From a virus, in IMG/VR virus record IMGVR_UViG_3300033145_000625, positions 1-43,542 of that record: a stretch of 43,542 bases of DNA. One strand, given 5' to 3'. Below, in pieces: positions 4,505 to 39,501 of this stretch. The translations under genes and the position numbers were made by a program. Position 1 is the first letter of the stretch; each line of letters starts with the position of its first letter. The notes below the pieces were generated by a model. It did not search any database. It saw only the letters and a program-made list of their open reading frames with translations, and was not told where the DNA came from.

Positions 4505-4771
4505 ATGCCAATCTATGAATTTGAATGTGCTTGTGGCCATAATGCCGATTTTATCAAAAAAATGGGTGATTTCGTTCAAATATGCCCTAAATGCGGCCAA
4601 AATATGAACAAATTGATCTCCACGGCTAATATCAACGTGGGGCCGGTTTCGATTACCGGCTACTATGACGATAACCTTCAAACGTATATTCGGAGTAATA
4701 CCCATCGAGAACAGGTCATGCGCGAGCAGGGCGTGACTGAATTCGGGGCCACTCCAAAACTTCAAGACTGA
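4505..4771 (+). CDS. FmdB-like zinc-ribbon protein
   Basis: An 88-residue protein beginning MPIYEFECACGH with CPKCG near residue 28. That is the layout of the FmdB/regulatory zinc-ribbon family (YEF-C..C, then CPxC), which binds one zinc ion through four cysteines. The rest is polar and short. It lies between portal and scaffold with two further tiny cysteine proteins behind it. Members are common in phages, but their role is not established. The start at ATG 4505 follows a GGCGAAAGAACC stretch with only a weak ribosome-binding site. Confidence 0.75.
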   Translation: MPIYEFECACGHNADFIKKMGDFVQICPKCGQNMNKLISTANINVGPVSITGYYDDNLQTYIRSNTHREQVMREQGVTEFGATPKLQD

Positions 4772-4783
4772 AAGGACGGGAAA

Positions 4784-4960
4784 ATGGTTTGCCCAGAATG
4801 TCAAAGCGATAAAATAGAGAAAAGCAACAGGACCGAATCTTCTAAAGTTGGCTGGAAAGATGGTCTAGGTTCACCGGGAACATTAATTTTTAAAATAGAT
4901 GTCTATGTGTGTAAAAATTGTGATTATTATTGGGAATCTGGCAAGAGCCTGAAGGGATAA
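4784..4960 (+). CDS. Tiny zinc-ribbon protein (CPEC/CKNC)
   Basis: A 58-residue protein with CPEC at residues 3-6 and CKNC near residue 46, a classic four-cysteine zinc ribbon with a 40-residue insert. It is preceded by AAAGGACGGGAAA, the leader shared with many small genes here, which supports translation. It probably has a DNA-, RNA- or protein-binding role, but nothing in the sequence tells which. Confidence 0.7.
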   Translation: MVCPECQSDKIEKSNRTESSKVGWKDGLGSPGTLIFKIDVYVCKNCDYYWESGKSLKG

Positions 4961-4963
4961 AGA

Positions 4964-5140
4964 ATGAGAATATGTGATCGACACGAAGCCAAAAAAGTAA
5001 AAGCCACTGACTTCCTTCATCTTAGCTCCACCGATGAACATTTTGATCTCTGTGCAGATTGTGTAGACGAGATCATGGCTTTCATCCAGAAACCCGCAAA
5101 ACGGGCCAAAAAAAAGGAAAAAGACCCCGAAACGTCATAA
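4964..5140 (+). CDS. Tiny Cys/His protein with Lys-rich tail
   Basis: A 58-residue protein with CDRH at residues 4-7 and CADC at 30-33, so a possible zinc site. It ends in a strongly basic tail (KRAKKKEK). It starts three bases after the preceding stop. Its stop codon overlaps the inverted repeat described next. Function unknown. Confidence 0.6.
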   Translation: MRICDRHEAKKVKATDFLHLSSTDEHFDLCADCVDEIMAFIQKPAKRAKKKEKDPETS

Positions 5141-5201
5141 ATTTGACGTAATTTAGATAAATAACTTGACATATCCTTTTTGTGGTGTCAGAATTTTGAC
5201 A
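5133..5201 (+). promoter_or_regulatory. Promoter with two operator-like inverted repeats before the scaffold gene
   Basis: CGTCA (5133-5137), six bases, TGACG (5144-5148) form a perfect inverted repeat. A second, TGTCA-N6-TGACA, lies at 5186-5201. Between them TTGACA (5166-5171), a 17-base spacer and CAGAAT (5189-5194) make a reasonable sigma70 promoter whose -10 overlaps the second repeat. The same CGTCA-N6-TGACG element recurs at 13470-13485 on another promoter. This suggests a regulated start point for the capsid genes. The regulator is not identified. Confidence 0.55.
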
Positions 5202-5219
5202 TTACAAGGAGGATTTTTT

Positions 5220-6107
5220 ATGTCAGACTCGTTATTGGATGCAGGATCTGATTTTGATGCTAGCGGAAAAGGCGCGATGGGATCGGAACCGGGCACGGAA
5301 CCGGCAACCCCTGAAGGCCCCGCTGGATCAGAAGATGGACAACCTGCCCCGGATGATGATGGTGGGACAACCGGTTTAGACGCCGGATCCCCTGATGGAA
5401 AACTCGCCGCAACTCCGGCGGCGACCCCGGAATTTTTTGATCCCCAAATTTTAGTGGATAAGCCTGATTTAAAACCTGCATATAACTCTATGCAGAAGGC
5501 GTTCACCAAAAAAACGATGAAGTTAGCCGCAGATCAAAAGAACATCGACGCTTACAAGTCGTTTGAAACTCAGTTTGCCAACGACCCGGCTGGTACGCTT
5601 GACCGGCTTGCACAATCCCAGGGACTTCAAGTTATACGCCCAGGAGCTTCGTCCGACGATAAACCGAAACCATTTACAGATGGGTGGCAGCCCGGTAATT
5701 GGAAAGAGGTCGCGGAGGGGCTAATGGCCCAAGTTGAGTCCCGGATAAATCAAGCCGTCAATCCTATCAAGGGGGGATTGGCCTCGATCGAGAACAGTAC
5801 CTTCGAGACTACGCTGGATAATCTGGCGCCGGAATGGCGCGAATATGAGCAGGACGTGGCCGATACATTGACCATGGCCCCCGGACTTATGAAAGACCCG
5901 GCTAAATTGCTGAGGGCGAGTTTGCCTCAGAAGGTTATTGAAGGTCGCGCGATGCAAGCTGCTTTGGCGCGTATGAAAAGCCAATCTGCGTCTGGCCATG
6001 TTGGGGGATCCTCAACTACAACTACCCGGCCCGAGAATGAACCTCAAGGCAAATTGACTTTTGCCGAAGCGGCCGTAGCCGCTAAAAAGGACCTCGGGAT
6101 AGAATAA
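5220..6107 (+). CDS. Scaffolding protein (probable)
   Basis: A 295-residue acidic protein located directly before the major capsid gene, the standard place for the scaffold that shapes the prohead and then leaves or is cut. The first 75 residues are disordered and rich in Gly, Ala, Pro and Asp; the rest is predicted helical with charged heptads. The ATG at 5220 has a perfect AAGGAGG at 5206-5212. A longer frame from 5166 would start inside the promoter and is rejected. No protease motif is seen, so capsid maturation, if any, would need another enzyme. Confidence 0.75.
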   Translation: MSDSLLDAGSDFDASGKGAMGSEPGTEPATPEGPAGSEDGQPAPDDDGGTTGLDAGSPDGKLAATPAATPEFFDPQILVDKPDLKPAYNSMQKAFTKKTMKLAADQKNIDAYKSFETQFANDPAGTLDRLAQSQGLQVIRPGASSDDKPKPFTDGWQPGNWKEVAEGLMAQVESRINQAVNPIKGGLASIENSTFETTLDNLAPEWREYEQDVADTLTMAPGLMKDPAKLLRASLPQKVIEGRAMQAALARMKSQSASGHVGGSSTTTTRPENEPQGKLTFAEAAVAAKKDLGIE

Positions 6108-6119
6108 AAGGGAGACATT

Positions 6120-7232
6120 ATGGCTTTAACTATAGGAGATGGCAGCGCACCGTCTCAAGTAACCCGTAATTACGATGCGTTGTTATCGACTACACTTGCC
6201 AAATATCGTCCAACACTGATTGACAATATCTTTAAGGATAGTGCGTTCTTGGCGTTCATCCGGATGTCAGAGGCCTATGTCAGTCAGGATGGTGGGGAAC
6301 GTATCGCCGTTCCGCTGTTGTACGGGAAAAATAAGACCGTCAAAACATACGGCGGCTATGAGATTCTGGATACGACACCCCAGGAAGGAATGACCACGGC
6401 CTTCTATCCCTGGGCTCACATCGGTGGAACCATTTCCATCTCCAGGGATGAACAGCGTAAAAATGCTGATTCAGAGACCAGGATTCTGAATTTACTTGAA
6501 TCCAAGATAAAACAAGCCGAAATGACCATGCGGGAGGAGCTTAACCAGAAACTCCTACAGGGAACTGTCAGTGGCGCGACATTTATTGCGGACGTTTCCT
6601 TGGGCGGATCGGTTGGCGTACTTCCCCTGGGTTATTTCTTACGAAAACTCAAGGCCACCAATCCGACCTCGACCAACGTGGGAAATATTTCCTCGGCGGC
6701 CGAGGGTTGGTGGAGACATCGGGTGGGAGATTTCAGTGGTGGCTCTCCGGCCGGCGCCGATGTAGACCTTGCCATTACCACCTACAAGGGTTTCGAGGCG
6801 GCCGTAAGGCGCATGTATAATTTTTGCGCCAGAGGTTCCGGTGGCGCACCCAATCTCGCCGTGGGCGATCAGATATCCTGGGAAACCTACGTTAACGCTC
6901 TGGACACAAAAACCAGGTTCCAGAATACAAAGATGGCGGATCTCGGATTTGATACCATTAAAATCCGGGGATCTACCTTTATCTGGGACGAGGTTGTCCC
7001 CGATATGCACACTGGAACCACGGCTATTACCGAGGGTTCAATATTCTTCCTAAATACCGAATTCTACAAGGTAGTTTATGATCAGGAAACGAATTTCATA
7101 ACCACACCTTTTGTGGAACCGGAGAACCAGGCAGCCATGACCAGTAAGTTGCTCTGGATGGGGAATGCTACCGTTTCGAACTTGCGTAAACTCGGCGTGG
7201 CTTTGAACATCCCGCAGGATGTTGTGTCTTAA
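6120..7232 (+). CDS. Major capsid protein
   Basis: The 370-residue shell-forming protein, presumably HK97-fold. It contains the typical middle region in which a strand-rich segment (about 75-115) runs into a long amphipathic helix around residues 115-150 (ISRDEQRKN..., then ESKIKQAEMTMREELNQ), and a late beta-rich domain. Its place after the scaffold and before a decoration-type gene fits. GGGAGACATT before ATG gives a ribosome-binding site. I see no long N-terminal extension of the kind that is cut off in HK97. Confidence 0.9.
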   Translation: MALTIGDGSAPSQVTRNYDALLSTTLAKYRPTLIDNIFKDSAFLAFIRMSEAYVSQDGGERIAVPLLYGKNKTVKTYGGYEILDTTPQEGMTTAFYPWAHIGGTISISRDEQRKNADSETRILNLLESKIKQAEMTMREELNQKLLQGTVSGATFIADVSLGGSVGVLPLGYFLRKLKATNPTSTNVGNISSAAEGWWRHRVGDFSGGSPAGADVDLAITTYKGFEAAVRRMYNFCARGSGGAPNLAVGDQISWETYVNALDTKTRFQNTKMADLGFDTIKIRGSTFIWDEVVPDMHTGTTAITEGSIFFLNTEFYKVVYDQETNFITTPFVEPENQAAMTSKLLWMGNATVSNLRKLGVALNIPQDVVS

Positions 7233-7264: not shown

Positions 7265-7723
7265 ATGATATTACAACGTATTAACCGAACTGACCCCGAG
7301 AAAATTTTTATCGTGGTCATGAACAGCTATGGGACCGCTTCCCTGGCCAACGGCCAGGCGGTTATATGGGACTTTGCCGGAGACGCAGACGGCGTGGGCG
7401 TTACCCGGCCCACGGCGATTGCCACTAACCTGGGGTTGGCCGCGGCCGGAATTGTGGCCGAGGCTATCGCGGCCGGTGATTATGGGCTGGTCCAGGTATA
7501 TGGTTATCATTCAGCCGTTCGCACCCGCGTGATGACCAGCGGCGGAAATATCGAGGCCGGCACCCCGTTGGCCCTGAACGCGGCTGGTTCCCTGTATTGC
7601 CTGGAGAACTTCGCTACGGCTACCACATCGGCGACCCCGGTTAGGTATCCCATGGCATTTGCTCTGGCGGCTCAAACTAAGTGGACCACGGCGGCTATCG
7701 CGGCCTTCATAAAGGCCTTGTAA
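7265..7723 (+). CDS. Capsid decoration/head protein (probable)
   Basis: A 152-residue Ala/Gly-rich, beta-stranded protein directly after the major capsid gene. The passage around residues 80-125 (GDYGLVQVYGYHSAVRT, then AGTPLALNAAG) resembles the small head-decoration or DUF2190-type proteins that bind the capsid surface. It has one cysteine and no membrane segment. A ribosome-binding site AAGGAG precedes the ATG. If the following glycan genes act on the virion, this exposed protein would be an obvious acceptor, but that is inference. Confidence 0.65.
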   Translation: MILQRINRTDPEKIFIVVMNSYGTASLANGQAVIWDFAGDADGVGVTRPTAIATNLGLAAAGIVAEAIAAGDYGLVQVYGYHSAVRTRVMTSGGNIEAGTPLALNAAGSLYCLENFATATTSATPVRYPMAFALAAQTKWTTAAIAAFIKAL

Positions 7724-7757: not shown

Positions 7758-7798
7758 GAGTCGGGGGGTCCAGGAATCTCCCCGACTCCAATATTTTT
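7758..7798 (+). terminator. Rho-independent terminator after the head genes
   Basis: GAGTCGGGG (7758-7766) and CCCCGACTC (7780-7788) form a perfect nine-base-pair stem, extendable inside by two pairs, followed within six bases by TTTTT (7794-7798). It separates the capsid genes from the glycan cassette, so high late transcription may stop or thin out here before the enzymes. Confidence 0.75.
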
Positions 7799-7817: not shown

Positions 7818-8111
7818 ATGCCTAAATACGATACAGACGGTCCATTTAACGATCCAGTAGTAAGATGCTGCGATTGCCAGCTACTTATTCTGCGCGAAAC
7901 CATCCAAAAAACCTCGGGGTGTCCTGAGTGCGGGTGCCGCCGGGTCCGGAATGTTTTGAATATGAGCCCCAAAGAGGGGGAATGGTTGCGGGGAAAACGT
8001 AATCCACGGGAATTCGTCAAGGATATTTTACGGCTACGTTTTCGAAAGCGCCCCCGGGTGGATCCGGCTTTTATGGCCTTATTTGAAGAGACGGAAGTTG
8101 ATGGACAATAA
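7818..8111 (+). CDS. Small double-CxxC zinc-ribbon protein
   Basis: A 97-residue protein with CCDC near residue 18 and CPECGC near residue 35, enough for one zinc ribbon. A very basic C-terminal half (RLRFRKRPR) suggests nucleic-acid or acidic-partner binding. It uses the recurring leader AAAGGACAGGAAA before ATG and is the first gene of the enzyme cassette. Its 3' end overlaps the sulfotransferase start by 11 bases, so the two are probably translationally coupled. Confidence 0.7.
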   Translation: MPKYDTDGPFNDPVVRCCDCQLLILRETIQKTSGCPECGCRRVRNVLNMSPKEGEWLRGKRNPREFVKDILRLRFRKRPRVDPAFMALFEETEVDGQ

Positions 8112-8835
8112 GGAAAGGCTTCACCGGATGTATGTGGAGGTTTTTCCCCAAGAGATCGAGGACCCCAAGGAAATCGAGGTTATCTGGATTTTATCAACGG
8201 GCAGATGCGCTACCCTTACCATGTCCGTACTACTTCATGCCTGCGAGAACGTTACTTGTTTTCATGAACCGATACCTCGCCTAAAGCATCATTTCACAAA
8301 AGCCCTTAAAAAAGAGGCCGGGGGGATTGATCTCCTGGATCTTGTTTATTCCGCCCGCATTGATCTGACCAGCACGGTCAAGGCCTTTGGATATATTTAC
8401 GCCGAGGCTGGACATCAAACCACGCCGTTTGCTTACGAGATTAAACAGATATATCCCAGGGCAAAATTCATCTGGCTTGAGCGGGACCGAGATTCCTTCA
8501 TCGATTCGGCTATACGGTGGGGTTGGTATAATTCAGACGATAAATATATTAAATACAGACCCTTTTATAAGCTGGTCGGGAGTGTTCCACGTGAAACGAT
8601 TTTGGAAAAACACTGGGAGTTGGTGAGTAATTTTATTAACGATTTCGTGAATGCCCAGGCCAGGGAAGATTGGTGTTATGTAGATTTTCAGCGCGTTAAA
8701 GATAAAGACCTGAAGGATTTGTTCCGGCAGCTTGTCAAGTGGGGCGTCGTTAAGCCTCCAACCGAGGACATGATTCAACAGATACTTGAGGTCAAGTTAA
8801 ACGCCGGACCTCCGGGCCCCAAAAATTATTTTTAA
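8101..8835 (+). CDS. Sulfotransferase-like protein
   Basis: A 244-residue P-loop-fold protein of the sulfotransferase type, which transfers sulfate from PAPS to a hydroxyl or amine, often on a sugar. IWILSTGRCATLTM (residues 29-41) matches the 5'-phosphosulfate-binding loop (usually xxGxxRSGTT). KFIWLERDRDSFIDSAI (122-138) matches the 3'-phosphate motif with Arg128 and Ser136. His55 in CFHEP is a candidate catalytic base. The loop has Cys-Ala where Ser-Gly is common, so activity needs testing. I chose ATG 8101 over TTG 8083; it overlaps the previous gene. The neighbours are sugar and methyl transferases. Confidence 0.7.
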   Translation: MDNKERLHRMYVEVFPQEIEDPKEIEVIWILSTGRCATLTMSVLLHACENVTCFHEPIPRLKHHFTKALKKEAGGIDLLDLVYSARIDLTSTVKAFGYIYAEAGHQTTPFAYEIKQIYPRAKFIWLERDRDSFIDSAIRWGWYNSDDKYIKYRPFYKLVGSVPRETILEKHWELVSNFINDFVNAQAREDWCYVDFQRVKDKDLKDLFRQLVKWGVVKPPTEDMIQQILEVKLNAGPPGPKNYF

Positions 8836-8850
8836 GGACAGGAGAAAGAT

Positions 8851-9639
8851 ATGGCCACAAACGAAGTTCCCATGACGGCCGCCGAGACCAGGAAGAAATT
8901 TTATGGCGGTTATTATGATGAACGCCACGTGGCTATGCCCCTGGGACATCTGATCGGCATTATGCAGCAGGCATCGAGTAATGACATGCACTATCGGGGA
9001 TTTAGGTGCAATAAGCATCCCTGTGATGCTTGGGCAATTCAAGAAATCATATACGAGACTCAACCACAAGTGATTATTGAAATAGGTCGGCAAGATGGCG
9101 GAAGCGCATTGTTTTTGCGGGATTTATTGAAAGCTGCGGTAAAAAACTGGGAAGGCGTATTCAGTATCGATATTTTACCCGCCGTTGATTTTTCTGTTGG
9201 AATAAACATGACCGATGAAGGGATAGTGCAATTCCAGGGAGATTCGGAAAACCTGGATATAATCGCCAAGGTAGCAAGGGGCTGTGTGGAATATCGCACG
9301 ATGGTCATAGATGATTGCTCGCATACTTATGAGAACGTCATGGCCAATCTTAAGAATTATGGCCCTCTTGTTTCCGAGGGTTGTTACTATATCGTGGAAG
9401 ATATGATAATCAATCATGGGTTATTTCACGCACGTCACGCCCAAGAGGGAAATGATCTTATGGCCGCGGTTCAGGACTTTATGGCCGGTGGTGGCTCTAA
9501 GAGGTTTGAAGTCGAGCGATCCCGCGAGAAGTGGTATATCACCAGTAATCCAGGTGGATATTTAAGGAGGCTATCTGTGGAGCGTACCACCTGGGAGCCC
9601 ATTCTCGGGCGTTCTTATCCGTTGCCGAGTGATTATTAA
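8851..9639 (+). CDS. CmcI-family SAM-dependent O-methyltransferase
   Basis: A 262-residue protein resembling the CmcI/rhamnosyl O-methyltransferase family. The first nucleotide-fold motif is VIIEIGRQDGGSALF (about 74-88), the acidic strand VFSIDI (103-108), and the family signature MVIDDCSHTYENV (151-163) precedes ..LVSEGCYYIVEDMI (173-186). Relatives methylate sugar hydroxyls or cephalosporin intermediates and need a metal held by Asp and His. In this cassette a sugar O-methylation is the likely job. It is preceded by AAGGACAGGAGAAAG, the cassette leader. Confidence 0.8.
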   Translation: MATNEVPMTAAETRKKFYGGYYDERHVAMPLGHLIGIMQQASSNDMHYRGFRCNKHPCDAWAIQEIIYETQPQVIIEIGRQDGGSALFLRDLLKAAVKNWEGVFSIDILPAVDFSVGINMTDEGIVQFQGDSENLDIIAKVARGCVEYRTMVIDDCSHTYENVMANLKNYGPLVSEGCYYIVEDMIINHGLFHARHAQEGNDLMAAVQDFMAGGGSKRFEVERSREKWYITSNPGGYLRRLSVERTTWEPILGRSYPLPSDY

Positions 9640-9665
9640 TGATCTTAGTATTTAAGGAGGACAGG

Positions 9666-9884
9666 ATGAGCGATTCAATCGAGTATAAAATATGTCACAG
9701 GGAAGATTGCGGGTTTTTTGCTATCTGGACGATTAGGGCTGATGGAACAATTGCTATTGCAAAAACAAAAGGGCAGGAAGCGGCTGAAGAATTTTGGAGT
9801 AACGAATTTCAGCCTGAATGGGTTTTTAAGCGCTGTCCATTATGTCAAAATTTCAATGGGTTCGATGGATTTAAACCGATATAA
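9666..9884 (+). CDS. Small Cys-containing protein (CPLC)
   Basis: A 72-residue protein starting at ATG 9666, directly after TTTAAGGAGGACAGG. A longer frame from 9639 lacks a ribosome-binding site. Cysteines sit near residues 10 and 15 (C..EDC) and in CPLC near residue 58, a possible zinc site. It is richer in A+T than the enzymes around it. Function unknown. Confidence 0.6.
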   Translation: MSDSIEYKICHREDCGFFAIWTIRADGTIAIAKTKGQEAAEEFWSNEFQPEWVFKRCPLCQNFNGFDGFKPI

Positions 9885-9911
9885 TTTCATTATTTAAGGA
9901 GGACAGGAAAA

Positions 9912-10202
9912 ATGAAATGTTCAGGTTGTATTTTTTTAAAAGAAATGATCACTCATACTTTTGCCGTAAATGATACAACAATAGACAGAGTCGGGCCGCT
10001 TCCCGAGGACAAAGAAGAAGGCTGTATTTATAAAGCAAAAGATGGTAGCTGGGAATTAGAAATACAATTTTCATATGAAACCAAATGGCTTGAATGTCGA
10101 GTGGGGCCACCAAAAGAAAATACTGGGTTTCAGAGACATAAGGGTTGGCCTCAGGTTTTGGCCGATGATGGTTGTGGGTCCTGTAGGGTTAGAGCAATAT
10201 GA
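9912..10202 (+). CDS. Small Cys-rich protein
   Basis: A 96-residue protein with cysteines in CSGC (3-6), EEGC (about 38), LEC (about 62) and CGSC (about 88-91), so a zinc- or disulfide-stabilised fold is likely. It is preceded by TTTAAGGAGGACAGGAAAA, identical in its core to the leader of the previous gene. Its stop overlaps the aminotransferase ATG. More A+T-rich than the enzymes. Unrecognised. Confidence 0.6.
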   Translation: MKCSGCIFLKEMITHTFAVNDTTIDRVGPLPEDKEEGCIYKAKDGSWELEIQFSYETKWLECRVGPPKENTGFQRHKGWPQVLADDGCGSCRVRAI

Positions 10203-11344
10203 TCCCCGTATTTAAACCTTCCTACGGCCAGGAAGAAAAGGACGCTATTTCCCGGGTCCTGGATTCAGGCTGGACCGGACTCGGCCCGGAGACTGAGAAA
10301 TTCGAGCAGGAATTCGCGGATTACCTGGGCGTAAAACATGCCATTGGATTAAGCTCGGGTACTGCCGCTTTGCAACTGGCCGTGGAATATCTGGTTCCCC
10401 GTAAGTCCCTGGTCATCACAACCCCGCTTACTTTTGTGAGCACGGCCCATGCAATCCGATATAATGACTGCCAGGTCTATTTTGCGGACATTGAACCGGA
10501 TACCCTGAACATTGACCTGAGCTCGGTTCCGGTGGACATCCTGAAGGTTGCTGCGGCCGTGGTTATAGTACATTTTGCCGGATATGCCTGCGATATGGCG
10601 AAAATCTATAAATACGCCACTGAATATGATTTGAAGATAATTGAGGACGTGGCCCACGGATGTGGCGGGGTACATGAACTCGGTAAACTCGGGACCCTGG
10701 GGGACGCCGGCTGCTTTTCTTTCCATGCTGTCAAAAATTTGTCATGTGGTGATGGTGGCATGTTGACCACTAATGACGGGGAGTTTGACCAGTGGGCGCG
10801 GCGTATGCGTTGGCTTGGGATAGACAAGTCAACCTGGGATCGTCAAAATATTGACAAGTATGAATGGAATTATGACGTGGTTCATCTCGGGTATAAATGC
10901 CATATGAATGATATTACGGCGGCCATAGGGCGGGTGCAGTTGGAAAAACTGGAAAAGGCCAATGAAAATCGTCGAGTCTTGGCCGGGAGATATACGCAGG
11001 CTTTTCATTCAGGACACGCAGCCATTCAGGACGCGGTGCAGCCTTTGTCTGTCAATCACCCGGAAGTTATTTCTGCACGTCACGCCTATGTGATCAAGTG
11101 CGAGAATCGGGATGGACTTCACGAATATCTGAAAAAGCGAGGCGTAGCTTCATCGGTCCATTACATGCCTCTGTTTTATTTCAGCCAGTATGCGGAGGCT
11201 GATTGCCCGGTAGCCCGGGAAGTCTGGAAGGAAATTTTAACCCTGCCCCTTTATCCGGACATGACGAACGAAGAACAAGACCAAGTTATCGGGGCGGTAA
11301 AGGAATTCTATGGAAAGGACGGGAATGACGGGAATGACGAGTAA
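10199..11344 (+). CDS. DegT/DnrJ/EryC1/StrS-family sugar aminotransferase
   Basis: A full-length (381-residue) PLP enzyme that converts a nucleotide keto-sugar to an amino sugar, feeding glycosyltransferases. Visible landmarks are FKPSYGQEE and GWTGLGPETEKFE at the N-terminus, the PLP-phosphate loop GLSSGTAALQL (50-60), the ring-contacting Asp150 in EDVAHG, the Schiff-base Lys179 in SFHAVKN followed by SCGDGGM, and the C-terminal SSVHYMPL motif. All essential residues are present. It overlaps both neighbours (ATGA upstream, 20 bases downstream), indicating one operon with the glycosyltransferases. No sugar dehydratase or nucleotidylyltransferase is encoded here, so the keto-sugar must come from the host. 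Confidence 0.93.
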   Translation: MIPVFKPSYGQEEKDAISRVLDSGWTGLGPETEKFEQEFADYLGVKHAIGLSSGTAALQLAVEYLVPRKSLVITTPLTFVSTAHAIRYNDCQVYFADIEPDTLNIDLSSVPVDILKVAAAVVIVHFAGYACDMAKIYKYATEYDLKIIEDVAHGCGGVHELGKLGTLGDAGCFSFHAVKNLSCGDGGMLTTNDGEFDQWARRMRWLGIDKSTWDRQNIDKYEWNYDVVHLGYKCHMNDITAAIGRVQLEKLEKANENRRVLAGRYTQAFHSGHAAIQDAVQPLSVNHPEVISARHAYVIKCENRDGLHEYLKKRGVASSVHYMPLFYFSQYAEADCPVAREVWKEILTLPLYPDMTNEEQDQVIGAVKEFYGKDGNDGNDE

Positions 11345-12794
11345 AGCGAAATTTGACGGCGATGACAAGATACTGGAATTTGACCGGGGTGCGACCAAGA
11401 AAACCAAGCGGATTTTTATCGGGATCCCCTGTTATGATTCGGTCGCGGCCCAGACCCTCGAGGATTATATGAGGTTGGCCTTTTACCTGGGCCGAAGATA
11501 TCCGGAATATGAATTTTACATGCAGGTCAAGGATAAGTCAGAGCAGTTCCGCGCGCGGAACGCCTTGGTTCAGAGCGCTTTGAATGTGGGGGCTGATTGG
11601 ATGCTCATGCTCGATGATGACCACATTATTGACGTTGAGGGTGTATCCGGGAAACCGGGAAAGGGCGCTGAGTGTTATGATTTTCTTCATCGCCTGTTGG
11701 CCCATGATGTGGATATAGTTGGACCGATCTATTATCACCGGGGCGGCGAGGCTGGCCCGGTGGTCATGGAAGAGCGCGACGGGGGCTTTCGGAATATGCA
11801 GACCAATCAATTAACCGGGGGCCTACAGGAGGTGGCCGTTCAGGGCGGCGGATGTATGCTCATCAAGATGAAGATTTTCGATAAACTTGAGCAACCCTGG
11901 TTTAAGCCCGAGCATGTTTATGGAACCGATGTTCAGCTTTGCCGAAATGCCAAAAAGGCTGGGTTCAGGGTTTATACCGACAGTTCGGTCCAGATCGGCC
12001 ACGTGATGAGCAAGCGCATAATTATCAGTGAGAAAAACCGGGAGCAGTTCAAAGAGGACACTATCATCCGGGCGGCCAACACGCTGGCCTCCGACTGGCA
12101 CGCCAATTCGGTTTTAAACGAATATAAGATGGATGCCATGACTTATCTCAAAATCGATGAAGAAAGTAAATTGCGGGAACTGTATGATCAATACGCCGAA
12201 GATTCCATGAATTTGAGTGAAAGACATGGGCTGGGGACACCAAAATATTACGCGCACATGGGCGATTCTCAGATTGGGCGGCAGGTGTTGTACCATTTTT
12301 CGCCACACGCTTTATCCTGGTTATCTTTTTGTCTAATGAACATTCATGTCACGCGGCCGTTAACGGGTATTGATTTCGGATGCGGATCTGCTCCCATTGG
12401 ATTTGAATTGCTTCGCCGGGGCCACACTGTATATTTTCATGACATGGATGGAGCGGCGGCCTTTAAGTTCCTGAAATGGCGTATTAAGCGATACGGGGTG
12501 GTCGACCGGGCCATATATAATGAGTGGCCGACCGAGGGCCTAGCCTATGCCCTGTTTTGTGATGTCCTGGAACACCTGGAAGATTGGCATGACCCGATAA
12601 AGAGAACGGTGGACGCCATGATCCCGCAGGGTATTCTCTTTACAAATTATATGGTTATCGACAAAGATGTCCTGAATGTAGAGCATTCGAACTGGGATCG
12701 ACCCGAATTTATGCGATATATGACCGAATTGGGCATGGAACCGTTAGGTAACTGTGTTTTCATGAAAACGGGCGGTTCTGCCACGGGAAAATGA
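11325..12794 (+). CDS. Glycosyltransferase-methyltransferase fusion
   Basis: A two-domain protein of 489 residues. The first half is a GT-A-like glycosyltransferase: RIFIGIPCYDSV begins the fold, and WMLMLDDDHI near residue 100 gives the DxD metal motif. Two more acidic and aromatic segments follow. The second half is a Rossmann SAM methyltransferase with GIDFGCGSAP about residue 348-357 and FHDMD and FCDVLEHLEDW further on, like the UbiG/Methyltransf_11 type. Transfer and methylation of the same glycan is the simplest reading. ATG 11325 follows AAAGGACGGGA, the cassette leader; ATG 11310 and 11334 are alternatives. Confidence 0.82.
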   Translation: MTGMTSKAKFDGDDKILEFDRGATKKTKRIFIGIPCYDSVAAQTLEDYMRLAFYLGRRYPEYEFYMQVKDKSEQFRARNALVQSALNVGADWMLMLDDDHIIDVEGVSGKPGKGAECYDFLHRLLAHDVDIVGPIYYHRGGEAGPVVMEERDGGFRNMQTNQLTGGLQEVAVQGGGCMLIKMKIFDKLEQPWFKPEHVYGTDVQLCRNAKKAGFRVYTDSSVQIGHVMSKRIIISEKNREQFKEDTIIRAANTLASDWHANSVLNEYKMDAMTYLKIDEESKLRELYDQYAEDSMNLSERHGLGTPKYYAHMGDSQIGRQVLYHFSPHALSWLSFCLMNIHVTRPLTGIDFGCGSAPIGFELLRRGHTVYFHDMDGAAAFKFLKWRIKRYGVVDRAIYNEWPTEGLAYALFCDVLEHLEDWHDPIKRTVDAMIPQGILFTNYMVIDKDVLNVEHSNWDRPEFMRYMTELGMEPLGNCVFMKTGGSATGK

Positions 12795-12808
12795 AAGAGG
12801 ACGGGATA

Positions 12809-13468
12809 ATGCAGATATGTGTGTGTGGTTGGTATTTCAGGCCGGATTTTTATGCCCTGATGAGAGAAGTAAACAAGAAATATTCCGTGACGGTGATAAA
12901 TCATCAAGATACGCCGCTGAAGTGGGAATACAAATTATCTTGGCATTTATGCCCCAACATCGGCCTCGAATGGGGCGCCTACGACTTTTTTTTGAAAACC
13001 GCCTGGGACGGCGAATCGGCCGTTCTGTTTCTTCACGACGATATTCGATTCCGGCCCGTGATCAAGAACTACGAGCTAATCGAACCGATAATCATTTTTG
13101 ACACCATCGAGCAATTCGAATTCGATCAGGTTTATTTTTTTGGATCGTTGGAGGAGGCGACTAAAAATTACGGTATTCATGGCCGGGCCTTTAAATGTTC
13201 GGCCGTATTTCTTAAATCTCTCCTGGAACAAAATAATGGTTTCTGGTATGACGAGAACAATGACGGCCATATCCAGGGAACAACCCCGAATTATTGTGAG
13301 CACTACAATAAAGCTGATTATAAATTTGCCGACTTCATTAAGGAGTTGAAGTGCCGGTCCAATGGACTTTTGGATGCCGGCCACTATGTCATTCTACCGG
13401 CCCTGGATTGTGCGGTTCGGGGCAGATTTCGAGAAGAAATTGAAGGGGTTATGGACGACGAAAATTAA
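12809..13468 (+). CDS. Glycosyltransferase-like protein
   Basis: A 219-residue protein with ICVCGWYF at the start, NIGLEWGAYDFFLK near residue 50, and AVLFLHDDIRF near residue 70 in the place of a DxD motif. This layout resembles short GT-A glycosyltransferase-like proteins of the DUF3431/DUF5672 kind. The C-terminal part ends in AGHYVILPALDCAV and an acidic tail. AAAGAGGACGGGATA precedes ATG 12809. An earlier ATG at 12791 overlaps the upstream stop and is possible. It is the last gene of the sugar cassette, with a new promoter behind it. Acceptor and donor are unknown. Confidence 0.6.
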   Translation: MQICVCGWYFRPDFYALMREVNKKYSVTVINHQDTPLKWEYKLSWHLCPNIGLEWGAYDFFLKTAWDGESAVLFLHDDIRFRPVIKNYELIEPIIIFDTIEQFEFDQVYFFGSLEEATKNYGIHGRAFKCSAVFLKSLLEQNNGFWYDENNDGHIQGTTPNYCEHYNKADYKFADFIKELKCRSNGLLDAGHYVILPALDCAVRGRFREEIEGVMDDEN

Positions 13469-13469
13469 T

Positions 13470-13508
13470 CGTCAAAAAGTTGACGAGATGTAAGTTTTAT
13501 GTCATAAT
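13470..13508 (+). promoter_or_regulatory. Sigma70-like promoter with CGTCA-N6-TGACG operator
   Basis: TTGACG (13480-13485), a 17-base spacer and CATAAT (13503-13508) form a strong promoter. The -35 is the right half of a perfect inverted repeat CGTCA (13470-13474)-N6-TGACG (13481-13485), identical in halves and spacing to the one before the scaffold gene at 5133-5148. It restarts transcription for the tail genes after the enzyme cassette. Confidence 0.65.
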
Positions 13509-13905: not shown

Positions 13906-14565
13906 ATGAACTCGCTCGAGACACAGGTCCTGGAATTAATTGGCGAGAATACGTCCGATCCGGATGTTTTTGTCGATACCGATACAGGGCTGGAGCCTAT
14001 CCGGGACTCCCTCAATGACGCCATAGAAGAAATTACTCTCATTACGTCCAGCATGAAACGGAAGTATTTGATTATGCTGGAGGCGAATAAGAACGTCTAC
14101 CGGTTGCTTTTCAACCGGAATCAGTTTGGCTGGATTACCGGGGTCTGGGACAGGATCAATCAGCGCCGGATAGAACAAACCGATTTTATTCGCCTTCGAG
14201 CTTTCAATTCCCGGTGGCTTCAAAACACGGGACCTCCCAGGTCTTATGTCCCGGTTGGCCTCAACGCGGTCATGTTCTGGCCCAGGCCAGCCGGGAGCGG
14301 GATATATGAGCTTGACATAGCCATGATACCCGAGAGATATCAGACCAGCACGGACAGGATCACGCTCAGACGGACGTTCGAACAGGCGGCCGTGCATTAT
14401 GCCGTGTCTGAATTCTGGGCTGGCCGGGGGGATGCCCGGACCGCCATGATTCATTTCGGGGAATATTTGAAACGAGTAGGATTGAGCGATGTGTTAAATC
14501 CGGCTGCTGAACGGGAAGGTGGATTCACCACAGGTAAGGAGCCGTGGCCGAAGAGCACGGATTAG
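13906..14565 (+). CDS. Head-tail adaptor protein (probable)
   Basis: A 219-residue protein beginning with a helical stretch (LETQVLELIGE, then IRDSLNDAIEEI) that resembles phage adaptor proteins which dock under the portal, as in P22 gp4 or T7 gp11-type proteins. A C-terminal helical part follows (TFEQAAVHYAVSEFWAG). It sits first among the large tail genes. The start ATG 13906 has only a distant GGAG. The 68 bases before it hold no gene or clear signal. Confidence 0.6.
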   Translation: MNSLETQVLELIGENTSDPDVFVDTDTGLEPIRDSLNDAIEEITLITSSMKRKYLIMLEANKNVYRLLFNRNQFGWITGVWDRINQRRIEQTDFIRLRAFNSRWLQNTGPPRSYVPVGLNAVMFWPRPAGSGIYELDIAMIPERYQTSTDRITLRRTFEQAAVHYAVSEFWAGRGDARTAMIHFGEYLKRVGLSDVLNPAAEREGGFTTGKEPWPKSTD

Positions 14566-30057: not shown

Positions 30058-30795
30058 TTAATTTCCCATGTACCAGTTATGGATTAATTCCTCTGCGCTA
30101 TTTTCCCTTAACTGATTCTTTTTGAGTTCAAAATACTTTGTCATGGTTTTCTCGAACATTAGATATATCTTGGGCCAACGGGCTTTATAAATATTGATCT
30201 TTTTCATGTTGTATCCCCGGCACAAATAAGGGCAGACTACACAGCCAATCCGGTCAAAACCCTCGTCGTAAAGGGAACAATACGGAATTTTATTACTATC
30301 GATATAGTCCCAGATCTCCCACTCCAGCCAGTAAAAAATAGGCTTATATATCCATTGCTTCCACCTTTTAAAGTAATCAACCTGTGGCTTGGCTGCCCTT
30401 TTAGGCGACTCTTCGGCCCGAAGTCCCATGAGTCGATGAGGCAGGGGAATATCTCTTGTAGGCTTCTTCTTCAGTTCATCACAGCACCAACGACGGAATA
30501 TTGTAGGGAACTGCTTCTTGAGAATTAAAGCCCAAAAGTTCTCTTTAGGATATTTAAAGATCACGGTTGGATAATTTTTTTTTATAAATCTGACCAACTC
30601 GGGCGGATCAATTCCCGGACAGGAATAATAAGCCTGGAACTTGACTTCGGCCCTCTCGGCCAGAGCATAAAGCACAGCGCTGTCCTTTCCCCCGCTGAAA
30701 CCAAGAAAATATCCCTCTGGAGGTTCATGCTGTTTAATGAATTCAATGGCCGTATCCACCTTAGTTTTACCCCATAAATCTATTTGTTGCGGCAT
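30058..30795 (-). CDS. PP-loop ATP pyrophosphatase, PAPS reductase-like
   Basis: A 245-residue protein of the PAPS-reductase/DndC-like family. SGGKDS at 34-39 is the PP-loop that binds ATP and activates a substrate by adenylation. Cys104-Cys105 and Cys185, Cys188 (GCVVCP) and Cys192 could hold an iron-sulfur cluster, as in many phage members. True CysH reductases end in a catalytic Cys near the C-terminus that I do not see, so a nucleotide- or DNA-modifying role is as likely as sulfate reduction. It sits between two 42-bp repeats. The ATG has no ribosome-binding site unless the hairpin folds (see findings). Confidence 0.8.
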   Translation of the reverse strand: MPQQIDLWGKTKVDTAIEFIKQHEPPEGYFLGFSGGKDSAVLYALAERAEVKFQAYYSCPGIDPPELVRFIKKNYPTVIFKYPKENFWALILKKQFPTIFRRWCCDELKKKPTRDIPLPHRLMGLRAEESPKRAAKPQVDYFKRWKQWIYKPIFYWLEWEIWDYIDSNKIPYCSLYDEGFDRIGCVVCPYLCRGYNMKKINIYKARWPKIYLMFEKTMTKYFELKKNQLRENSAEELIHNWYMGN

Positions 30796-30893
30796 AAAAA
30801 GGGGAGCCGAAGCCCCCCGGCCTCCTTTGGTTGGGGTTTACGTTTCAGCCCGGTCGGTCGGTAGTGTTTCCTGATCCAGTCTTTAATGTTCAT
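30780..30893 (-). CDS. Small basic protein reading through the repeat
   Basis: A 37-residue basic frame beginning MNIKDWIRKHYRPTG. Its ATG overlaps the stop of the Gp37/Gp68-type gene (ATGA) and has GAGGTG in good position. The last 20 residues are encoded by repeat copy 2 (RKPQPKEAGGLRLP), and it overlaps the PP-loop gene by 16 bases. In copy 1 the same frame is open but follows a stop codon. Perhaps the gene from which the repeat derived. Confidence 0.4.
   Translation of the reverse strand: MNIKDWIRKHYRPTGLKRKPQPKEAGGLRLPFLCRNK
30801..30842. repeat. 42-bp direct repeat, copy 2, with terminator-like hairpin
   Basis: Identical to 30010-30051. On the leftward strand the stem GGGGGGC-TTCG-GCTCCCC (30818-30801) is followed by TTTTT (30800-30796) and then at once by the ATG of the PP-loop gene. 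It can therefore act as an intrinsic terminator or as a translational element. Confidence 0.9.
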
Positions 30894-31789
30894 CTCGGCA
30901 CCTCGTCCCACGCCCGACCGTCGAGCATCCGGCCAGCGGCTTTCTTGCCGACCTTGGCCATGGCCCAACAATCTTGATTCAACGGGGCGGTTGTATTAAA
31001 GGTTTTTCCGTTTTTGTCTATCCAGGTATATTTTTTTCCCGTTTTATGGGAAGTTATTTCCCACGCTCCCCATTGCTTAAAGAAAAAAGGCACACCAGCC
31101 GCCTGGCATTGATCCCGGACGCTTCGGAACCAATCCGGGTGACTTGGCCGGGCACCAGGGCCGGATTCACCGCCGACGATGATCCAGTCGATTCCCTCAT
31201 CTTTTTCTCGGTGAATTCTTCGTCCTACTCTATAACTCCATTTTCTGGGTAAGTAAGGAAAAAAATCCACCGGCCCGAGTGCCGGTTCATAGCTCATGAT
31301 CAATTTAGCGGCCCATGGCCTCATTTGCATCAGCACCGGTCCCCAGCGATCAAGATCGTCTTGGTTCGAGACGGAAATGCCAAGCCAGAGGTTTTTAAAA
31401 TTAAAACGAGAGGTTATGCTCAACTCATAAAAAACTCTGTGCATACGCTCGGGTCGTTTTGTCAAAAATAAATATGTATGACGATTAGCCTCTTGGATTA
31501 CCCATAAAATTTTAACTATTTCCTGAATAGAAACCTCATCATGAAACAGATCCCCCATGCTGACCACAAAGATCAGGCGGGGTTTCTTCCAACGCAGGGG
31601 CTCATCGAGTTTGCCCGGGTGAAAAGTACCTGGCGTGAACGGGTCATCCAAGGGATACCCGAATCGGCCCCTAAACCGTTTGGCGAACCGAGCCGCATAA
31701 CAGTTCGCGCAACCGGGCGATTCAGTTGGAGTACATCCGGTGATTGGGTTCCAAACCATGTCGGCCCATTGAATTTTAGTGTCGGCCAT
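30890..31789 (-). CDS. Phage Gp37/Gp68-family protein (DUF5131, radical-SAM-like)
   Basis: A 299-residue protein that matches the phage Gp37/Gp68 family (PF07505) in its opening (IQWADMVWNPITGC), three cysteines Cys19, Cys27 and Cys30 (GCTPTESPGCANCYA), and later GDLFHDEV, FLTKRPERM and IIVGGESGPGARP. The cysteine cluster suggests an iron-sulfur, radical-SAM-like centre, but the biochemical function of the family is not settled. It is coupled to the small frame and PP-loop gene downstream. Confidence 0.88.
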   Translation of the reverse strand: MADTKIQWADMVWNPITGCTPTESPGCANCYAARFAKRFRGRFGYPLDDPFTPGTFHPGKLDEPLRWKKPRLIFVVSMGDLFHDEVSIQEIVKILWVIQEANRHTYLFLTKRPERMHRVFYELSITSRFNFKNLWLGISVSNQDDLDRWGPVLMQMRPWAAKLIMSYEPALGPVDFFPYLPRKWSYRVGRRIHREKDEGIDWIIVGGESGPGARPSHPDWFRSVRDQCQAAGVPFFFKQWGAWEITSHKTGKKYTWIDKNGKTFNTTAPLNQDCWAMAKVGKKAAGRMLDGRAWDEVPR

Positions 31790-32190: not shown

Positions 32191-32263
32191 TATTTGAAAA
32201 TGTCTCTCGGCCTTCAAGGTACCAGCGTTCAATAAATTGAATCAATTCAACTTTTTTGGCCAT
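32135..32263 (-). CDS. Small protein overlapping the coiled-coil gene
   Basis: A 42-residue frame beginning MAKKVELIQFIERWYLEG. Its ATG overlaps the stop of the ATP-grasp gene (TGATG) and follows AAGGAG, a better start than that of the coiled-coil gene, which it overlaps by 56 bases in another frame. The sequence looks protein-like. Unrecognised. Confidence 0.5.
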   Translation of the reverse strand: MAKKVELIQFIERWYLEGRETFSNNDERGSPEKRQAIHDPLS

Positions 32264-33030
32264 CAATCTCCTTCGACTTGACAGAGCGCACCTATCATGT
32301 TTTTGGAACCGAATTGGTCAGGACAATCTTCCCAATGCCATGATTTATGGGCCTCGGCCATGTCGGTTAAATACCAGCCACGCTCTGTTTCTAAAAGATC
32401 AACCGACCACGACCCGCCTACTGCCTTTCCAGCGGCAGAGGCGATTTCGTCTAGTTCCTCTTGATTTTCCATGCGACACAACTCTTGATATGTTTCATCA
32501 CTCATATCCGCCCCGCCCTGTTCGATAGCATGTTTAGGCCAGTAGGGATGACGGCATATAATTTTTTCATCTTCTACGAAAAAGCGAAATTCTCGACAGA
32601 CCGGCATATCGGAATATCGAGGACATACAGCAAATGGTTTAATCGGCAAATATTTTCGAAGAACCCAAACACTAAAGTCTATCCCCATCAGGTCCGCAAG
32701 TAATGAGAATTCCACGATAGAAATAACATGTCTTCGTATATCTTCTGGACGTTCAAGGTAGCAAGTGTTCTTCCAGCTATGTTTTGCTGAGGTCTGCCCC
32801 GTCCGCAGAAAACAAGGATAACCCATGGCATCCGCAAGATTCTTTATCAGGTTAAAAAATGGTTGGGTCGAATCCGGTAGGGCGATTCCGTCAAACACTC
32901 TATAAAAATCCCTTTTCATGTACTCTGGCATTTCCAAAATAGCCGTCAAAGGCACTGGCAGTCCAGCCTCTTTAATTTTCGGAAACCAATACGATAGACA
33001 AGTTTTATCTTCGATTTTACGATGGGTCAT
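32263..33030 (-). CDS. ATP-grasp-like protein (D123/R2K type)
   Basis: A 255-residue protein with features of ATP-grasp ligases of the D123 or phage R2K type: FLRTGQTSAKHSW (a Lys-bearing nucleotide strand), CREFRFFVEDEKI, and the metal-binding end WSVDLLETERGWYLTDMAEA. Such enzymes join a carboxylate to an amine using ATP, sometimes adding residues to proteins. Start ATG 33030 has a perfect AAGGAGGAAGAT; a longer frame to 33111 has none. Substrate unknown. Confidence 0.65.
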   Translation of the reverse strand: MTHRKIEDKTCLSYWFPKIKEAGLPVPLTAILEMPEYMKRDFYRVFDGIALPDSTQPFFNLIKNLADAMGYPCFLRTGQTSAKHSWKNTCYLERPEDIRRHVISIVEFSLLADLMGIDFSVWVLRKYLPIKPFAVCPRYSDMPVCREFRFFVEDEKIICRHPYWPKHAIEQGGADMSDETYQELCRMENQEELDEIASAAGKAVGGSWSVDLLETERGWYLTDMAEAHKSWHWEDCPDQFGSKNMIGALCQVEGD

Positions 33031-33091
33031 ATCTTCCTCCTTACTCAAACACCGCCCTCGAGTAATCTGGCTTCCATGATATCGGTCAAGG

Positions 33092-33316
33092 TTAATCCTC
33101 CTGCTTCCCACACCGCTTTAACTCGTCGGGTGGTTTTCTTAAGTTTCCACATGGAACTACGATGGTTTTCCCGTCAATTTCGATACCGTGATTCCGGGGC
33201 CGTCCTTTGCCGACAATCGTTATCTTGCCAATTTTCCCGTGGTAGGGCATCCACTCTCGCATTCCCTTGCGATACCAGACTTGCGCAGTATGCCCTATGG
33301 GTGGATTAGTGAGCAT
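33092..33316 (-). CDS. Small basic phage protein
   Basis: A 74-residue protein, strand-rich, with IGKITIVGKGRPRNHGIEIDG followed by TIVVPCGNLR, a pattern I associate with short hypothetical phage proteins. No ribosome-binding site precedes ATG 33316. A nine-codon frame starting at about 33342 overlaps its start and may couple translation. The 110 bases upstream (33317-33426) hold no other gene. Confidence 0.55.
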   Translation of the reverse strand: MLTNPPIGHTAQVWYRKGMREWMPYHGKIGKITIVGKGRPRNHGIEIDGKTIVVPCGNLRKPPDELKRCGKQED

Positions 33317-38652: not shown

Positions 38653-39501
38653 TCATTTCGGTATGTCCTTGGTTGCCTTATCTGCTAATTTACAAAAATT
38701 TATTTCGGCGGACTCGGCGGACTCGGCGGCGGACCAGGCGGCGGACTCGGCGGACCTGGCGGCGGACCTGGCGGCGGACTCGGTGGCGGACCAGGCGGCG
38801 GACCTGGTGGCGGACCAGGCGGCGGACCAGGCGGCGGACTTGGCGGCGGACCTGGTGGCGGACTCGGCGGCGGACTCGGCGGCGGACCAGGCGGCGGACT
38901 TGGCGGCGGACCTGGTGGCGGACCTGGCGGCGGACTTGGCGGCGGACCAGGCGGCGGACCTGGTGGCGGACCTGGTGGCGGACTCGGCGGCGGACCTGGC
39001 GGCGGACCAGGCGGCGAACCAGGCGGCGGACCAGGCGGCGAACCAGGCGACGGACCAGGCGGGATTTTTTAAGTATTCTCTTGCCGCCTCAATTGTTTCT
39101 CTGGGACGTTTATCGTCCGGGAATTCATTTTCAAATATTGACAGTACGCTTTCGGCGCATAAAATCGAAAATTGAATAAATATTTTTTTACGGATTTCTT
39201 CATCCGTGTACCAGTTCGGTAAATCCAGCTTCTCAATGGTAGTTAATTCGTGACATCCGACCTTTCCCCAGTCCTCAACCTCAACTTCCCCGCTTGCCTC
39301 CCATAATTCAGGATTATCAATATTGGCGTGAATGGGGTTTAAAAGGAGAGCAAGATTTTGATTTTTATAGGCATGGATTACGCCAAAAGAACAGAGTTCG
39401 ATATTTCGCAGACCCTTATCCACCGAATGCGTAATACTCTCACCCCACTGGCATTTGTTGTGTGTCTGGTGTTTTTCGTCGGTTAATTTATAAAGCTTCA
39501 T
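38653..39501 (-). CDS. Protein with about 30 alanine-rich four-residue repeats
   Basis: A 282-residue protein. The first 145 residues are ordinary (LYKLTDEKHQTHNKCQWGE, then a helical part ending EAAREYLKNPAW). The rest, to about residue 265, repeats A-x-S-A with x being Trp, Arg, Glu or Lys, and Thr sometimes replacing the first Ala. A short ordinary end follows (INFCKLADKATKD). N-terminal modules of this sort with Ala/Ser/Trp repeats occur in other phage proteins of unknown function. ATG 39501 has AAAGGAGGAACT. Confidence 0.75.
   Translation of the reverse strand: MKLYKLTDEKHQTHNKCQWGESITHSVDKGLRNIELCSFGVIHAYKNQNLALLLNPIHANIDNPELWEASGEVEVEDWGKVGCHELTTIEKLDLPNWYTDEEIRKKIFIQFSILCAESVLSIFENEFPDDKRPRETIEAAREYLKNPAWSVAWFAAWSAAWFAAWSAARSAAESATRSATRSAAWSAAKSAARSATRSAAKSAAWSAAESAAESATRSAAKSAAWSAAWSATRSAAWSATESAARSAARSAESAAWSAAESAESAEINFCKLADKATKDIPK
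38706..39062. repeat. About 30 copies of a degenerate 12-bp tandem repeat
   Basis: The rightward strand shows GGCGGACCAGGC-type units, varying mainly in the two bases that set the variable residue (CCA, CCT, CTC or CTT). The tract is GC-rich and lacks stops in several frames, which creates long meaningless frames on the opposite strand. The copy number is likely to change by slippage. Confidence 0.9.

Follow-up and report, generated by a model that had tools for sequence, protein, structure and literature searches.

A probable virion-glycosylation island between the capsid and adaptor genes of an uncultivated phage

Virion glycosylation in phages is known from only a few cultivated systems. 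Glycans on the capsid and tail proteins of mycobacteriophages have been reported (PMC11256854, PMC12619734), and phage Che8 carries glycans on its capsid protein (PMC11256854). In the archaeal virus STIV (Sulfolobus turreted icosahedral virus), the glycosyltransferase (GT) A197 is essential and presumed to attach sugar from a host donor to the coat protein (PMC10551542). In Enterobacteriaceae, flagellin glycosylation islands carry a variable repertoire of GTs, aminotransferases and methyltransferases, inserted immediately next to the gene that encodes an abundant surface protein (PMC4875605). Here we describe five enzyme genes among the head genes of IMGVR_UViG_3300033145_000625, a single virus record of 43,542 bases that was analyzed over its whole length (the window). 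We think it probable that this block is a modular virion-glycosylation island, whose target would most plausibly be the neighboring decoration protein and whose product would be a host-derived sugar that is aminated, methylated and sulfated.

The five enzyme open reading frames (ORFs; coordinates in Table 1) are intact, lie on one strand and mostly overlap or are closely spaced. They are flanked by head and neck genes: the major capsid protein (MCP) gene and a small head gene upstream, and an SU10-type adaptor gene downstream. A preliminary description of this DNA had placed five glycan-building enzymes in a row here. All five ORFs are present at that place, with the sulfotransferase starting at the ATG at 8101, although two small ORFs lie between the CmcI-type methyltransferase and the aminotransferase, so that the five are not strictly consecutive.

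The central enzyme is a GT fused to a methyltransferase. It matched phrog_1574 at 46 bits and gave weak methyltransferase matches, and it was weak by Pfam. The AlphaFold model, based on a 21-sequence alignment, had a predicted local distance difference test (pLDDT) score of 85; in a fold search, one half matched GT-A enzymes and the other half S-adenosylmethionine (SAM) methyltransferases. The phrog_1574 match, the model and the fold matches thus agree with the fusion named in the preliminary description. The nearest solved folds of the GT half were COLGALT1 (4.5e-10), LH3, ppGalNAc-transferases and STIV A197 (template modeling (TM) score of 0.71 on the target), the last of which was the best compact match in the Protein Data Bank (PDB). 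COLGALT1, LH3 and the ppGalNAc-transferases are protein glycosyltransferases. A profile search also returned Mnn9 and A197 (1.3e-4 for A197), and the structural matches in BFVD included a GT of phage Che8. Within the GT domain, D104, R144, P150, G179 and D207 were invariant in the 21 sequences, which came from different phages, and D102 (at least 90%), G181 and H231 were nearly invariant in the same alignment. As modeled, the fusion has a GT-A fold with a DXD motif, formed by D102 and D104. The phrog_1574 scores were 46–52 bits for the window and its relative L002, and 71–87 bits for phages in which the gene lies between those for capsid and adaptor.

Three of the other enzymes could be assigned to families, and the PF17784, PF04989 and PF01041 matches bear out their earlier identification as a sulfotransferase, a CmcI-type methyltransferase and a DegT/StrS aminotransferase. 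The sulfotransferase scored 28.9 bits against a Pfam cut-off of 22.8 and retains the phosphate/PAPS (3′-phosphoadenosine-5′-phosphosulfate) loop G-R/K-x-x-T, R127 and S135; its homolog in the relative L216 fell marginally below its cut-off (26 vs 27). In the CmcI-type enzyme, D155, E183 and D184 were invariant with CmcI 2br3 in the alignment, and we take them to be the acidic metal ligands. This enzyme reached 77.7 bits with the rhamnosyl O-methyltransferase equivalog NF045824, for which 400 bits are required. The DegT enzyme matched PF01041 over its full length (326 bits, residues 10–367, above the Pfam cut-off). Its K179 and D150, presumably the lysine that binds pyridoxal phosphate and the cofactor-binding aspartate, were invariant among the window and four relatives and were aligned with ArnB. 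With 278.9 bits against the 423.5 bits of the PseC equivalog TIGR03588, it is predicted to be PseC-like and not PseC. The functional roles of such conserved residues are general knowledge of the families. Catalytic-type residues, whose loss on alignment had been named beforehand as evidence against the set, are retained. The fifth protein, GT225, had been described as GT-like. It is conserved, with homologs in the corresponding position of L216 (50%) and L012 (34%), and an H82-D83-D84 motif and NxGLExGAY are kept in the three phages; its identity as a glycosyltransferase was not borne out, as Pfam, PHROG and PDB searches gave no family, profile or structure match.

A scan with the capsid profile yielded 80 loci, and 44 complete slots (decoration protein to adaptor) were available in all. 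The phrog_1574-type GT was present in all 10 scan loci that combined a complete slot with an MCP identity of 42% or more. With the window, L216 and L012 added, 13 of 13 such genomes carried this GT type between the decoration protein and the adaptor. It occurred in 19 of the 44 complete slots overall, and the slots without it belonged to distant relatives. The GT(-methyltransferase) gene is therefore the resident core of this phage group. L002, with an MCP 63% identical and the same order from terminase to adaptor as the window, has only the zinc ribbon, the fusion and small ORFs in its slot. The companions vary: L012 has the fusion followed by the GT225 homolog, L093 a GT4 with a methyltransferase and a Sulfotransfer_2 gene, L129 GT2-methyltransferase fusions and L140 a Glyco_trans_1_2 gene.

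All five enzymes recur between the same neighbors in L216 (IMGVR_UViG_3300009506_000115), which was retrieved independently by a scan with the DegT alignment. Its order is decoration protein (81%), zinc ribbon, CmcI (47%), DegT (47%), GNAT acetyltransferase, fusion (64%), GT225 (50%), small protein, sulfotransferase (30%) and adaptor; the enzymes are thus reshuffled, and the sulfotransferase lies on the opposite side of the core from that in the window. The recurrence is the strongest sign that the enzymes belong together, and the acetyltransferase adjoining DegT would fit an amino sugar. The preliminary description had taken the enzymes as a set and had suggested that related phages be searched for the same order. 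The set is found again at the same site in L216, and the GT core is common, but the extra enzymes occur only in some lineages. Parallels exist in less related phages: the capsid gene of L175 is followed by a GT, a methyltransferase and a DegT (49%), and in L213 a GT, a sulfotransferase, a DegT and a phrog_1574-type GT separate the capsid gene from a tail gene. In the rest of IMG/VR, genes of this GT type are mostly found behind one for a major head protein. Among the 61 ORFs lying closest upstream, 33 matched phrog_1328 and 11 matched phrog_10, and both of these families are major head proteins. This layout is therefore widespread. No match was obtained by megablast of half of the window against phages, no relatives by single-protein scans of IMG/VR with DegT and GT225 and of genomes with DegT, and no tblastn match for CmcI, the sulfotransferase or GT225 among 50,697 phage records.

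The content of the slot is highly variable among relatives, and homing-endonuclease-like ORFs occur in it (GIY-YIG in L099). This could fit a recombination hot-spot 3′ of the decoration gene that gathers unrelated glycan genes, which would not work together and some of which might be inactive. We regard such a hot-spot as quite unlikely, because the catalytic residues are preserved, the reading frames overlap and are unbroken, and L216 again has the five enzymes together in a different order.

The block had also been described as an inserted unit between a terminator and a fresh promoter, and here the comparison led to a different picture. A hairpin is also seen after this decoration gene in L002, L092, L094, L103, L093 and L101, including relatives without extra genes; the hairpin that follows the decoration gene in the window is thus rejected as an insertion border and is a normal operon feature. 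The promoter-like match, one of 12 found where 13.2 were expected, was rejected as the other border. Codon usage and G+C content of the enzymes resembled those of the structural genes and gave no signature of recent import; only the two small ORFs were A+T-rich. Repeats flanking the enzyme block did not exceed chance-like matches. The block is not one foreign piece dropped in: the fusion is a core gene, to either side of which some lineages have gained further enzymes.

We assigned cassette types by hand (A, fusion; B, GT4 type; C, GT with GT2-methyltransferase; D, other; N, none). Among 32 genomes, the decoration-protein tree required 4 type changes, the smallest number possible, compared with 10 on the capsid tree. 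In a subset of 22 genomes with the adaptor as control, the numbers were 5 for decoration protein, 7 for capsid and 7 for adaptor. Within a 12-genome set, L093 has a decoration protein and cassette of type B on a backbone of type A, and in L095 the two types are swapped. Backbone data from upstream and downstream rejected the decoration/cassette split (approximately unbiased (AU) test, P = 0.00023 and 0.0037), and the decoration and GT data rejected the backbone split (P ≤ 6.7e-5), the tested splits having been named after the first trees had been seen. According to these tests, the exchanged unit begins between the capsid gene and the decoration gene and ends before the adaptor. The decoration protein and the cassette have been exchanged together between phage backbones.

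The preliminary description had offered two targets, the virion decoration protein and the host surface. Some phage GTs alter host surface glycans (PMC10955285, PMC12619734), the combination of DegT, GT and methyltransferase resembles O-antigen genes, and soluble enzymes acting on cytoplasmic precursors need no membrane-embedded step. The five enzymes might accordingly remodel the host surface (O-antigen, capsule or S-layer glycan) late in infection and block superinfection or re-adsorption to debris. We consider this unlikely: the cassette lies within the head operon, its type follows the decoration protein and not the MCP or the adaptor, and neither a flippase nor any other membrane protein was noticed in it. 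The virion decoration protein is more likely than the alternatives, since the cassette type tracks it. More tentatively, we suggest that the decoration protein and the cassette could be one exchangeable module, in which the acceptor is swapped with its enzymes and each type makes its own glycan; in this lineage it might be a sulfated, methylated amino-sugar coat on the head.

For virion glycosylation, we infer the glycan chemistry, the order of steps, the acceptor, the donor, the joint action and the purpose as follows. The fusion, translated with the late head genes, would transfer a sugar from a host nucleotide-sugar to one of the phage's head proteins, with the neighboring 152-aa decoration protein as the likeliest candidate, and its methyltransferase half would methylate the product. 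DegT would aminate a host 4-keto-6-deoxy nucleotide-sugar, and GT225 would probably extend or start the chain. The CmcI-type enzyme would O-methylate the glycan and the sulfotransferase would sulfate it, and the coat might serve host-receptor interaction, shielding or particle stability. Neither a dehydratase/epimerase (PF01370) nor a sugar nucleotidyltransferase (PF00483) was detected in the window, L216, L012 or L002 in searches whose controls worked. This agrees with the earlier remark that no glycan precursor gene is present, and the donor must therefore come from the host.

The same four genomes bear on whether the transferases might instead decorate bases of the phage genome. DNA-hypermodifying phage GTs are known (Pyle 2024, as cited in PMC12619734), and the L002 homolog gave a weak TAGT match (E = 0.011). 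A thymidylate-synthase-type gene (PF00303) was absent from all four genomes, with working controls, and no Tet/JBP (PF12851) match was found in a search that had no positive control. DNA hypermodification would also not account for the location of the cassette within the head genes or for its tie to the decoration protein, and we consider it highly improbable.

Several points weigh against virion glycosylation. The glycan is predicted from genes alone, and the fold similarity of the modeled fusion would leave its acceptor unfixed. The decoration protein had no family match in profile searches and is identified by its position only; compared with GT-free relatives, it showed no Ser/Thr enrichment and no clear sequon difference. 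As its gene adjoins the cassette, a single recombination tract, or linkage, could carry both without a functional tie. The set in the window and L216 may be shared by common descent; support for the two as sisters was weak (72/85). Finally, the fold of GT225 could not be assigned, the single-sequence model being unusable (pLDDT 33).

Table 1. Features of the enzyme block and its flanks in the window.
Feature	Position	Strand	Basis or remark
MCP, upstream slot anchor	6120..7232	+	phrog_9953 major head protein, 150 bits, 2.3e-43
Small head protein, 152 aa, presumed decoration protein and presumed acceptor	7265..7723	+	Position; conserved in relatives (81% in L216); trees
Hairpin and T-run 3′ of decoration gene	7758..7798	+	Real stem of about 9 bp
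Small zinc-ribbon protein (Zn2)	7818..8111	+	Overlaps next gene; GT-free relatives have Zn2 too
PAPS-type sulfotransferase	8101..8835	+	PF17784 1.3e-6; homolog in L216 slot (30%)
CmcI/rhamnosyl O-methyltransferase family enzyme	8851..9639	+	PF04989 2.1e-33, 116 bits; PDB CmcI 2br3 8e-8
Small Cys-containing ORF (72 aa from ATG 9666)	9639..9884	+	Shares repeated leader with next ORF
Small Cys-rich ORF	9912..10202	+	ORF list
DegT/DnrJ/EryC1/StrS nucleotide-sugar aminotransferase, PseC-like	10199..11344	+	PF01041 3.2e-97
GT-A glycosyltransferase fused to class I methyltransferase	11310..12794	+	phrog_1574; AlphaFold model; start possibly 11325 or 11334
GT225, conserved partner of fusion	12791..13468	+	Glycosyltransferase-like by HDD motif only
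Promoter-like match, 10/12 with TG	13480..13508	+	Chance level
Small protein, 100 aa	13536..13838	+	34% match to L216 small slot protein located after GT225
SU10-type head-tail adaptor, downstream slot anchor	13906..14565	+	PF24175 6.9e-8

The zinc ribbon was considered as an obligate partner of the GT and rejected, since it occurs in GT-free relatives. The two small ORFs before DegT had no family match in profile searches. Both are preceded by a 28-nt repeat (86%; 9639–9666 and 9881–9908) containing AAGGAGGACAGGA, a duplicated leader with a ribosome-binding site. Homology of the decoration protein with Mx8 p49 was not detected. L012 has two tandem decoration genes (8209–9127) and a radical SAM/SPASM gene in its portal-scaffold region (4703–5455). 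In L094 (6829–8048) the decoration gene is apparently split, with a 206-aa ORF between the capsid gene and a 77-aa decoration remnant, possibly by an intron or a homing insertion. L002 has a second glycan gene in a different place of the head module, a GT29 (sialyltransferase)-like gene (4761–5339; PF00777, 29 bits) that is flanked by the first zinc ribbon gene and the gene for the scaffold.

Elsewhere in the window, the minus strand encodes a PAPS-reductase-domain (PP-loop) protein (30058–30795, 92 bits) that is absent from L216, L012 and L002, a DUF5131 protein (30890–31789, 270 bits), an R2K-clade ATP-grasp domain protein (32263–33111) and a protein with a long Ala/Ser/Trp/Arg repeat of the AAWSAARSA type (38653–39501), which results in spurious ORFs on the opposite strand. 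Only two contigs of metagenome-assembled genomes (MAGs) carried a related MCP (Candidatus Gottesmanbacteria, 66%; Actinomycetota, 30%), and both were too short to prove a host. The former, L171 (JAHFKK010000012.1), was binned to a Ca. Gottesmanbacteria MAG, which is a possible host hint or contamination.

Our data point to a glycan island that is widespread and variable in uncultivated phages and lies next to their capsid genes. They suggest a probable role for PHROG family 1574 and single out the co-exchanged decoration protein as a concrete candidate acceptor; if present, a sulfated amino sugar on the phage head would matter for adsorption, clearance and the stability of the particle. In the open-access papers that were searched, we found no description of an aminotransferase, a CmcI-type enzyme and a sulfotransferase beside the capsid gene, or of their joint exchange with a decoration gene.

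Compared with the known systems, the window resembles Che8 and Rita in being a tailed phage with its own GTs, and a Che8 GT appears among the structural matches of the fusion; the head-protein acceptor is reported there (PMC11256854, PMC12619734) and inferred here. In Maravista, which is related to Che8 and Rita, the GTs lie near the 3′ end of the genome and not between decoration protein and adaptor (PMC11256854). An aminotransferase, a sulfotransferase, a CmcI-type enzyme and co-exchange with a decoration gene are unmentioned in the portions of PMC11256854 and PMC12619734 used here. STIV A197 is likewise a small viral GT-A, but its virus is archaeal and it stands alone, lacking both a methyltransferase domain and accompanying tailoring genes. 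The family phrog_1574, which the core GT domain matches, is listed in PHROGs with unknown function; the GT here is fused to a methyltransferase. As in the flagellin glycosylation islands, variable enzyme genes adjoin the gene of an abundant surface protein, which is an analogy and not membership; those islands are bacterial, target flagellin and often bring sugar-biosynthesis genes of their own and show traces of transfer in their G+C content (PMC4875605). If virion glycosylation holds for the window, its block would belong with the virion-glycosylating phages.

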